A stretch of 64,000 nucleotides of DNA from Bacteroidales bacterium (GTDB lineage: Bacteria > Bacteroidota > Bacteroidia > Bacteroidales > F082). This document shows positions 19,600 to 62,776 of this stretch, one piece after another (positions within the stretch are counted from its first letter, which is position 1; each line of letters starts with the position of its first letter). The stretch lies in assembly GCA_015491905.1 (NCBI GenBank), contig WGGC01000031.1:1-64000 (forward strand). Direction: 5' to 3'. Both the position numbers and the translations under genes were made by a program. The notes under the pieces were generated by a model. That model was not told the DNA's origin. It did not search any database and saw only the letters and a program-made list of their open reading frames with translations.

Positions 19600-19686
19600 C
19601 ATGAATTTTTTTAATCATTTTCCTTGCCCTGTGAAATAGCAAAAATTTCATAGGGTGAATGTAATTTATGATTAACAAAATTCATG
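19600..19686. repeat. Fold-back element, copy A (family with 53400-53487)
   Basis: Outer arms CATGAATTTTTTTAATCAT / ATGATTAACAAAATTCATG (one mismatch) enclosing CCTTGCCCTGTGAAATAGCAAAAATTTCATAGGGTGAATG. Confidence 0.8.
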
Positions 19687-42420: not shown

Positions 42421-42518
42421 TTTTATTTGGATTGTTTAAAAATAAGAAAACAAAAGTACAGAAAAAGAATGATTTTAAAGGTATAAATAAAAACTTTTTA
42501 ATGGGGAGGTTTCATAAT

Positions 42519-42663
42519 GCGGCAAGGATAGAAACGGCAGCCCGCCACAGCGAAAAACGATTGGCTGCCTGCCGGAGGGTGCGACAGGGGAGCGCCCCGC
42601 AGGCAGTAACTGCCAACGTTTTTTGCTGTGGTGGCTATAGTGGATAGCCTGGTTCAGCCGCCC
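42519..42663 (+). repeat. GC-rich structured element E1 (diverged member of the E1/E2/E3 family)
   Basis: CCGCCACAGCGAAAAACG pairs with CGTTTTTTGCTGTGGTGG; nested TGCCTGC/GCAGGCA and GGGTGC/GCGCCC stems. Shares ATAGAAACGGCAGCCCGC and GCCGGAGGGTGCGAC blocks with the other copies. Confidence 0.7.
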
Positions 42664-51746: not shown

Positions 51747-53144
51747 TTAAATTTTCTTCATGGCAGCAAAATAGCTATTTGTTTCTTTTACTACCACACC
51801 CGATAGCATCAGCAAGGCTATTAAATTAGGAATAGTCATAAAGGTAATTACCATGTCCACAAAATGCCACACAATATCAATTCCCCATATAGAACCAAAG
51901 AAAACAAACAATCCATACATCAAGTAATAAGGTTTAACCGAACGCTCCCCAAACAAATAGTTCGCTGCCCTTGAACCGTAATACGACCAGCTTATCACCG
52001 TCGAAAAGGCAAACATCATCAAACCCCAGGTAATAATATGCTTACCGAAATCCTTTAAACCTATTCCTGCAAGACCGTCATTCATAGCCTGAATGGTCAT
52101 CCCCACACCTTTGATTCCCGAATGCCATGCATCAGTGGTAATTATCATCAAACCTGTCATTGTACAAATAATAAGAGTATCTACAAGTGGTTCCAGCGAT
52201 GCCACAAGGCCTTCACGGGCGGGGAAATCTGTTTTCGCCGCCGCATGAGCAATAGGCGCTGATCCCTGTCCGGCTTCATTGGAAAACAACCCTCGTCTTA
52301 TTCCCCAAATCATAGTCATCATAATGGTAGAACCCACAAAACCGCCTGTCGCTGCCGAACCTGTAAAAGCTCCTTTAAAAATCATGGCAAAAGCAGGTAA
52401 AATATGTCCCGACATATCAATAAGCACAATGGTAGTTGCTATTAAATATGTTATCGCCATCACCGGCACCAGCCGCGCCGTAACATCAGCAATACGTTTT
52501 AAACCTCCCAATATAATCAACAACACCAAACCGGTAAGTACCAATCCAACAATCCATGTCGAAAAACCATAAGTAGTATGCAATGCATCTGCCATACCGT
52601 TAGCCTGCGCCATATTTCCCGTTCCCAGTGAAGCCAGAATGGTAGCAACAGCAAAAATCCATGCCAGCACTTTCGCAAATACAGGCATATTATATATCTT
52701 CCCAATGGCATCACGAATATAATACATCGGCCCGCCCGATACCGTTCCGTCCGAATTAAAAACACGGTATTTATGCGATAACGTACACTCGGCATATTTC
52801 AATATCATTCCCAGAAAACCCGTAACCCACATCCAAAATAATGCTCCGGGACCGCCTAAGTACACCGCCAGTGCCACTCCTACAATATTACCCGTTCCTA
52901 TTGTCCCCGAAAGCGCCGTCGTAAGTGCCTTAAAATGATTCACATCGCCCTCATCTTCCTTCCGGTCGTATTTCCCGGCCACTACCAGCACCGAATGCCA
53001 CAGCTTGGTGACATTCAAAAATTTTAACCTGATAATAAAATAAAGACCTGTCGGAATAAGTAAAAATAAAATCGCATAACCACCGATATAATCGTTATAC
53101 CAGACTATTACGCTGTCAATAGCTTGTAATATATCATTAAACAT
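51747..53144 (-). CDS. Alanine/glycine:cation symporter (AGCS) family protein
   Basis: ALSGTIGTGNIVGVALAVYLGGPGALFWMWVTGFLGM, GGPMYYI, RRGLFSNEAGQGSAPIAHAAA. Confidence 0.95.
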   Translation of the reverse strand: MFNDILQAIDSVIVWYNDYIGGYAILFLLIPTGLYFIIRLKFLNVTKLWHSVLVVAGKYDRKEDEGDVNHFKALTTALSGTIGTGNIVGVALAVYLGGPGALFWMWVTGFLGMILKYAECTLSHKYRVFNSDGTVSGGPMYYIRDAIGKIYNMPVFAKVLAWIFAVATILASLGTGNMAQANGMADALHTTYGFSTWIVGLVLTGLVLLIILGGLKRIADVTARLVPVMAITYLIATTIVLIDMSGHILPAFAMIFKGAFTGSAATGGFVGSTIMMTMIWGIRRGLFSNEAGQGSAPIAHAAAKTDFPAREGLVASLEPLVDTLIICTMTGLMIITTDAWHSGIKGVGMTIQAMNDGLAGIGLKDFGKHIITWGLMMFAFSTVISWSYYGSRAANYLFGERSVKPYYLMYGLFVFFGSIWGIDIVWHFVDMVITFMTIPNLIALLMLSGVVVKETNSYFAAMKKI

Positions 53145-53210
53145 AAACGTGTGTTGGAAAAAGATACAAATATGGAAAAATTCTTTTAACCATACAAATT
53201 ACTGTTTTTT

Positions 53211-53370
53211 GGGCGCCACCCGTCCAAAAACGGGTCGGGCTGTACACTGCAAGTCCACGTCCAAAAAGCCGGGTGCGGCTAACCGTTTTTGGTGGCTCCT
53301 AAAGTCGCCCCACCTCCGGCAGCCTGCCACGGCTTTTGGCCTGCGGGCTTTCCGCTTCCATCCCTGGCGC
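53211..53370 (-). repeat. GC-rich structured element E2 (same family as 62629-62776)
   Basis: Minus strand GGAAGCGGAAAGCCCGCAGGCCAAAAGCC...GCTGCCGGAGGTGGGGCGACTTTAGGAGCCACC...ACGGTTAGCCG...GGCTTTTTGG...GGACTTGCAG, collinear with E3. Confidence 0.8.
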
Positions 53371-53399
53371 AGAAAAAAAGAAAAATAAAGGATGAAACG

Positions 53400-53487
53400 A
53401 CCATAATTGAATAATTATTAAATCACATTCACCCTGTGAAATTTTTGGTATTTCACAGGGTAAGGTAAATGATTATTCAATTATGGT
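53400..53487. repeat. Fold-back element, copy B (family with 19600-19686)
   Basis: ACCATAATTGAATAATTATT ... AATGATTATTCAATTATGGT outer arms; inner ACCCTGTGAAAT / ATTTCACAGGGT; reverse complement of the core matches copy A over about 50 bp. Confidence 0.85.
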
Positions 53488-53759
53488 AAGCGCCATAGAT
53501 GAAGGAATTTTTATTTTCTTTATTATCAGTAAAATAAAGAATTTTAAACATATAATAACTATATTAAAAATAAAGATTTTTATAATTGTTTTTATGTTAT
53601 TTTTTTTATTTTTACAAATTTAAACCTATAAAATTGTGCTTTACAATTTTTTAATTAAAGTTATAAATAAAAACAGAATAACTTATTTATAACTTTATTA
53701 TTTTATGAATACCATTATTAAAATACTATTTTAATTTTTATGTAACTTAAACGCTTAAA

Positions 53760-62628: not shown

Positions 62629-62776
62629 TTGCGGCCGTAATAGAAGTGAAAAGCCCACAGGTTAAAGGCCTATGGAGGCTTCCGGATGCGGGGCGACCTT
62701 GGAAGCCACCGCATACGGTTAGCCGGTCAGGGGCTTTAACCGAGGACTTGTAACGGATAGTACGAAATGTCCGCCC
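62629..62776 (+). repeat. GC-rich structured element E3 (same family as 53211-53370)
   Basis: AATAGAAGTGAAAAGCCCACAGGTTAAAGGCC...GCTTCCGGATGCGGGGCGACCTTGGAAGCCACC...ACGGTTAGCCG...GGGGCTTTAACCGAGGACTTGTAACGGATAG. Confidence 0.8.

Follow-up and report, generated by a model that had tools for sequence, protein, structure and literature searches.

Flavo-1 (RF01705) was described as a candidate RNA that is not cis-regulatory (Weinberg et al. 2010, PMC2864571), and it counts among the most abundant small RNA (sRNA) families of Rfam (review PMC9029176). A dedicated transcriptome study of Flavobacterium gave it no function; in the RNA-seq data of Flavobacterium psychrophilum, Flavo-1 matches lay sense and antisense alike and many fell outside transcribed regions (PMC9723704). 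Here we describe two full copies, E2 and E3, of an element found in the first 64,000 nt of contig WGGC01000031.1 of a Bacteroidales bacterium (GCA_015491905.1), a stretch hereafter called the window. E2, E3 and their sister copies very probably have the Flavo-1 architecture. They belong to a real, strongly structured multi-copy element, more likely to be mobile DNA than a gene for an RNA.

Fold, covariation and folding strand

A sequence-only reading of the window had noticed two GC-rich islands, at 53211-53370 on the minus strand and 62629-62776 on the plus strand. Both are present and homologous, collinear on opposite strands, with the sequence blocks it had listed in common, and its statement that neither copy holds a credible open reading frame (ORF) stands, no ORF of at least 80 aa being found over E2 or E3. 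The structural units were corrected to 53213-53372 (E2, minus strand) and 62629-62774 (E3, plus strand). Searching the assembly that contains the window (G000; 3.02 Mb, 204 contigs) with E2 by blastn gave 24 places. A covariance model, R1, was built from 23 copies trimmed to common ends, nearly every one of which folds alone into the same rod, and its search of G000 returned 76 copies, nearly all intergenic according to ORF analysis. A profile ignoring structure recovered all 76 copies again and added no more than 3 fragments; structureless relics are therefore rare. The element measures ~145 nt (range 142-180 nt). E2 (139.0 bits with R1) starts with CT and the P1 arm GCGCC, ends with the P1' arm GGCGC and has an additional small hairpin, GACCCGTTTTTGGACGGGT, between P2' and P1', while E3 (149.8 bits) runs from TT and GCGGC to TCCGC, then CCT.

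From base to tip, the rod begins with the helices P1 (5 bp) and P2 (3 bp). An A·G mismatch, 2 bp, a GNA/GNA loop and another 2 bp lead to a second 3x3 loop, beyond which come a long stem and, at the apex, a GGC-GA-C-loop-G-GA-GCC hairpin. In the alignment of all 76 copies, paired cells make up 95.6%, compared with 70.1±0.6% after shuffling and 37-46% once the partner is displaced by 1-3 columns. Two-sided change affects 31 of the 34 pairs; doubly changed cells number 587, against 146±11 in shuffled data, and the covariation score reaches 0.667 (0.189±0.008 shuffled). The long-stem change first read between E2 (GGCCAAAAGCC with GGCTTTTTGG) and E3 (GGTTAAAGGCC with GGGGCTTTAACC) was correct, and covariation over the 76 copies goes far beyond chance. 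Because this alignment was fitted to the model, the basal domain was recounted without it in 66 copies by means of sequence-motif anchors, where the far arm of P1 is placed partly by complementarity and the other helices are not. This count gave 768 Watson-Crick pairs out of 792, 13 G·T pairs (a wobble rate of 1.6%) and no A·C. The GNA loops are fixed on the 5' side in 64 of the 66 copies and on the 3' side in 63. At the 1x1 mismatch, 54 copies have A·G and 10 have G·A, which makes it a covarying non-canonical pair. P1 is variable in sequence (GCGGC, GCAGT, GTGGC, GCATG, CGGCC and others) and its far arm tracks the changes; beyond P1 there is no complementarity. The basal-domain result was repeated with copies from congeners (70 parsed of 84). 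Quasipalindrome correction was considered as a source of the pairing and rejected, since the internal loops stay unpaired with a conserved sequence and complementarity ends at P1.

A fold selected on one strand tolerates G·T on that strand but not A·C. Outside P1 in the model-fitted alignment, G·T occurs in 67 cells and A·C in 10 (13 and 0 by anchors), which indicates that one strand folds; judging from these pairs, it is the annotated one. The asymmetry argues against a symmetric cruciform, and the low basal wobble rate leans weakly towards DNA.

The window also contains a third copy at 42517-42661 on the plus strand (68.0 bits with R1). It has the Flavo-1-like basal variant GGCAGCC / GGCTATAG, with GCGGC/GCCGC as P1 and AGG/CCT as P2.

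Relation to Flavo-1

At the Rfam gathering threshold, the window yields two tRNAs only. With a relaxed threshold, E2 (26.4 bits, E 0.0026) and E3 (30.1 bits, E 0.0002) match RF01705 below its 42-bit gathering cut-off, in alignments that span positions 1-76 of the family with an insert of 90-91 nt at the tip. The sequence-only reading had named a hit to any known Rfam family as evidence against its own proposal. This came out in part, as RF01705 is matched, but below the cut-off. The GC-rich GGACTTGTAGCGGATAG-type islands that it mentioned between genes of other Bacteroidota are consistent with Flavo-1.

Canonical Flavo-1 copies were gathered from other Bacteroidota, where they were found in 40 of 299 sampled genomes, with at least 15 copies in some among the matches listed. 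In these copies CC follows an outer AGC/GCT stem, the 3' flank is rich in A, and P2, otherwise the same, has its own set of compensatory variants (CCCG/CGGG, CCTG/CAGG, CCAG/CTGG). The basal series of P2, 1x1 mismatch, 2 bp, 3x3 loop, 2 bp, 3x3 loop and stem keeps the same order and lengths in 66 copies of G000, 70 of the congeners and 35 canonical ones, with GNA loops and the A·G mismatch in every set. Likewise, the canonical AGC...GCT-CC end has its counterpart in a 5-bp P1 followed by C(C/A), and both forms are multi-copy and intergenic with an A-rich flank at +3 to +15. They differ in length and at the tip: canonical Flavo-1 has ~76-82 nt and a short apical hairpin, which is replaced here by a conserved apical domain of ~90 nt bearing a GGCGAC-NNN-AGGAGCC hairpin. 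The present element also differs by its 5-bp P1, its score below the Rfam cut-off and its occurrence in a Bacteroidales genus rather than in Flavobacteriaceae-type genomes. Because the basal architecture agrees while the Rfam score and the length do not, we treat E2 and E3 as a long-form subtype of Flavo-1.

A single place in G000 (L025; G000:C200:54415-54522, minus strand) scored above the Flavo-1 cut-off, with 43.2 bits, in a filtered whole-genome search. It has a short apical hairpin, was missed by R1 and lies outside the 76 copies; short and long forms consequently coexist in this genome.

Distribution, ends and genomic position

The element was found in all 12 searched genomes of the genus, with 3 to more than 70 copies each. 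Beyond the genus, its occurrence within the family and order is sporadic, copy numbers being lineage-specific, and phage and plasmid collections and IMG/VR gave no match to it. The host belongs to an uncultured Bacteroidales lineage, the closest named relatives of one protein from the window being Bacteroidales MAGs. The congener G009 contains copies at unrelated sites that are up to 94-96% identical, similarity usually being lost no more than ~2 nt from the 5' end and, on the 3' side, 5-15 nt beyond the end. The ends read YT...C(C/A), with C at +1 in 99% of copies. Positions +3 to +15 of the 3' flank hold ~62% A against 22-27% T, whatever the orientation of the genes or the lineage, so that the A tract is part of either the element or its target. 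Directly 3' of E2, the CC and conserved A-rich tract CCAAAAAACAGTA occupy 53200-53212 (minus strand). No excess of direct repeats that would mark target-site duplication was seen across 151 copies. The G000 copies C22 and C38 are 96% identical and have 71 nt of 5' flank in common and nothing 3'. Other copies are old. At three sites with flanks alignable between congeners, pairing was kept while the stems changed, e.g., P2 GGG/CCC versus GCG/CGC, and one apical stem was wholly rewritten.

Neighbouring genes show no uniform orientation, the upstream one being opposite in 38 cases and same-strand in 32, and the downstream one same-strand in 45 and opposite in 31. We searched for the Bacteroidota -7 motif TAnnTTTG, with expectations obtained by shuffling. 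Upstream on the same strand the motif is not enriched, neither in G000 (6 within 200 nt, 12.9 expected) nor in the congeners (11 within 150 nt, 8.5 expected). Downstream on the same strand it is found 37 times in G000 (10.7 expected) and 50 times in the congeners (7.8 expected), and upstream on the opposite strand 25 times (10.6 expected) and 11 times (5.6 expected), respectively. Since both of these exceed expectation, promoters point away from the element. Distances from the element to the downstream box cluster around 45-80 nt. Among the 42 cases with a same-strand downstream gene, the promoter lies between element and gene in 27 and upstream of the element in 3. Such positions argue against a 5' leader or riboswitch, which should sit between promoter and start codon, and the lack of any TAnnTTTG excess upstream is not what a small-RNA gene would be predicted to show. 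Canonical Flavo-1 (35 copies) has a weak promoter pattern, with 10 motifs downstream (3.4 expected) and 9 upstream (4.9 expected); the location outside promoters is therefore shown for the long form only.

E2 itself lies upstream of a sodium/amino-acid symporter-like gene (51747-53144). The -7-type box of this gene, CATATTTG (53167-53174, minus strand), lies 38 nt past the 3' end of E2, which places E2 outside the symporter mRNA. E2 is absent from the orthologous loci of 8 congeners, most of which share this box upstream of their symporter gene.

Several observations concern the surroundings of the copies. All seven pairs of copies less than 2 kb apart (G000 contigs C156, C196, C68, C107, C173, C153 and C145) have a minus-plus arrangement in which the 5' ends face each other, with gaps of 41-246 nt in five and of 1094 and 1634 nt in two; the chance expectation is one in four. 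A palindromic AT-rich repeat resembling miniature inverted-repeat transposable elements (MITEs) occupies 53392-53496, ~20 nt from the 5' end of E2, with a partner arm at 19612-19668. It reads ACCATAATTGAATAAT...CACCCTGTGAAAT..ATTTCACAGGGT...ATTATTCAATTATGGT, and some 20 copies, mostly 86-93% identical, are found in the genome. In three Flavo-1 copies (L011, L054 and L061, on G000 contigs C38, C86 and C179), the same MITE-like insert of ~270 bp follows GATAG at an identical position, with the terminal inverted repeat AACCTGA..TCAGGTTA. It seems to target Flavo-1; two of the three lie at contig ends. In the congener G010, a 270-nt repeat present at ~55 places (L088, L322-L351) often stands directly before Flavo-1 copies or before 5' halves of Flavo-1 that are fused to a different repeat (TTCACCCTGAAAGGGTGAAATATATGTAGCACCGTACG). 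A short contig of genome G002 (L084, G002:C216) shares 99.5% identity with G000:C95 across 400 nt; the two genomes are otherwise ~70-75% identical, which points to mis-binning or a recent transfer.

Mobile DNA, RNA or function in place

The sequence-only reading had left a choice between a structured RNA and a non-autonomous repeat. Conserved structure is borne out by the 76 copies. The repeat side of this choice is well supported by the sharp ends, the recent near-identical copies at unrelated sites, the lineage-specific copy numbers and the absence of E2 in 8 congeners, and we hold it quite probable that the element is mobile. The RNA side is unsupported in its usual forms, considering the absence of a promoter signal of its own, the lack of a consistent leader or terminator position and the F. 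psychrophilum RNA-seq (PMC9723704). The full interpretation, that these are non-autonomous dispersed mobile elements, an enlarged Flavo-1 subtype recognized through the single-strand fold of the annotated strand, stands for us at an even chance, and we are about equally divided on whether the element acts as single-stranded DNA (ssDNA) rather than RNA. A protein supplied in trans would bind the folded strand, more likely as ssDNA than as RNA, and copy or join it into AT-rich intergenic DNA. Copies unable to fold would stop spreading and then be lost.

Several known systems share features with the element. Repetitive extragenic palindromes (REP/REPIN), mobilized by RAYT transposases, are likewise dispersed, intergenic and strand-specific hairpins that are recognized in trans by their structure and leave no target-site duplication. 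They have 20-40 nt, unlike the 145 nt found here, and the present element lacks the GTAG foot and was not found at RAYT genes, with few Flavo-1 matches at Y1 loci. Integron attC sites are long imperfect hairpins that retain their pairing and certain fixed unpaired features, whereas the stem sequence is free to vary. The stem of our element varies in the same way, yet its copies are single and dispersed rather than arrayed as cassettes, and attC R'/R'' boxes (RYYYAAC/GTTRRRY) were not seen at the element ends by inspection of 160 copies, no search for an integron integrase being made. Like MITEs, the element is short, non-autonomous and dispersed in intergenic DNA with sharp ends. MITEs are fixed inverted repeats read as double-stranded DNA, whereas the terminal stem here varies by copy while staying complementary, and the 151 copies gave no target-site duplication. 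The true MITE-like repeat beside E2 illustrates the contrast.

The same fold could belong to a multi-copy structured non-coding RNA, in line with the sRNA type that Rfam assigns to Flavo-1, each copy being transcribed and working as RNA, e.g., by binding a protein through sheared G·A loops. The strong strand-specific covariation, the fixed purine-rich internal loops, the small number of decayed copies and the compensated evolution at orthologous sites would all suit such an RNA. We nevertheless consider it unlikely, as same-strand upstream motifs are at or below chance and promoters point away, orientation to the neighbouring genes is mixed, basal wobble pairs are scarce and the F. psychrophilum RNA-seq shows no consistent tie to transcripts (PMC9723704). 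The 3' flank, moreover, is A-rich and not U-rich, so that no terminator follows the element. The slight upstream promoter excess of canonical Flavo-1 leaves this explanation some probability. Another alternative is a DNA-level element that acts in place, immediately before core promoters, where it might serve, e.g., to insulate, to absorb supercoils as a hairpin or to bind a protein. It would account for the -7 box lying within 150 nt in the 27 same-strand cases, often 45-80 nt off, for the excess of downstream boxes in the congeners and for the copies kept at the same site between species, and the adjacent A-rich tract may be UP-like. However, free intergenic DNA is mostly upstream of promoters anyway, 31 of the 76 copies have a convergent downstream neighbour, the neighbouring genes at the sites inspected have nothing in common, and E2 is absent from the orthologous site in 8 congeners despite conservation of the promoter in most. 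A function in place is accordingly rather improbable.

Two known routes of mobilization fare worse. If the element were a REP-type satellite of a RAYT (TnpA-REP, Y1 HUH) transposase, the copies found near a few Y1 loci would be expected, but most RAYT loci have no Flavo-1 match, G000 has 76 copies and partial RAYT genes only, and G009, with its fresh copies, gave no RAYT-type match. This explanation is largely refuted by the other palindromes at RAYT genes and by the absence of a GTAG/GTGG foot from the element ends, and we give it very little credence. A bacterial retroposon resembling short interspersed nuclear elements (SINEs), with a fixed 3' end and an A-rich tail and spreading by target-primed reverse transcription, would explain the A-rich 3' flank in all lineages and the recent C22/C38 pair with its common 5' flank. 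It was already disfavoured by the lack of target-site duplication, the practical absence of 5'-truncated copies and the reverse transcriptase search described below, and is in our view highly improbable.

Several results weigh against the interpretation as mobile elements read through a folded strand. The mobilizing enzyme was not found among RAYT or reverse transcriptase candidates: a search with PF00078 (E up to 1e-5) detected no reverse transcriptase in G000 and G009, whose assemblies are incomplete, or in eight other congeners, and the RAYT genes of the genus are flanked by other, short palindromes such as CAAGCGTCCGCTTG. In the complete genome G004, with origin and terminus set by a coarse GC-skew scan, 20 copies are leading and 22 lagging, i.e., there is no lagging-strand bias. 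No clean pair of empty and occupied sites was found, including one sought through the 270-nt repeat of G010, which has its own 55 places. The compensated copies at orthologous sites suggest function in place or gene conversion, neither of which is required by simple mobility, and sequence cannot tell an ssDNA fold from an RNA fold. Proteins encoded between inverted pairs of copies belong to ordinary genes, no transposase being seen.

Other hairpins were noticed beside Y1 transposase genes. RAYT-like Y1 transposase genes of ~182 aa (L241, L242, L249-L251, L253, L260 and L261) are flanked by several short palindromes which differ by genome (CAAGCGTCCGCTTG, GGCGCGCGAAT..TTCGCGTGCC and GGATTTGCAATCC) and seem to represent the REPs that go with Bacteroidota RAYT subclass 2.6. 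At another locus (L246), three sub-threshold matches to RF01687, the Acido-Lenti-1 'sRNA', at 1109-1156, 1937-1984 and 2168-2215 surround a Y1_Tnp gene (1501-1839); RF01687 may therefore also be a transposase-associated DNA hairpin.

Extended to the whole family, our interpretation would make Flavo-1, listed as an sRNA since 2010, a family of mobile elements read as folded ssDNA by an enzyme apart from REP/RAYT, IS200/IS605 and attC systems, with the long form as one lineage; we advance this tentatively, as a possibility we would not yet favour. For the long-form lineage, the fold is now resolved down to single mismatches, and sharp ends, the strand and the genomic position are established as well; none of these features resembles an RNA gene. 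Should the element be mobile DNA, the Rfam family would need a new label and a structure-reading enzyme would await discovery. Should it be an RNA instead, the conserved GNA/GNA loops would indicate where to seek its partner.
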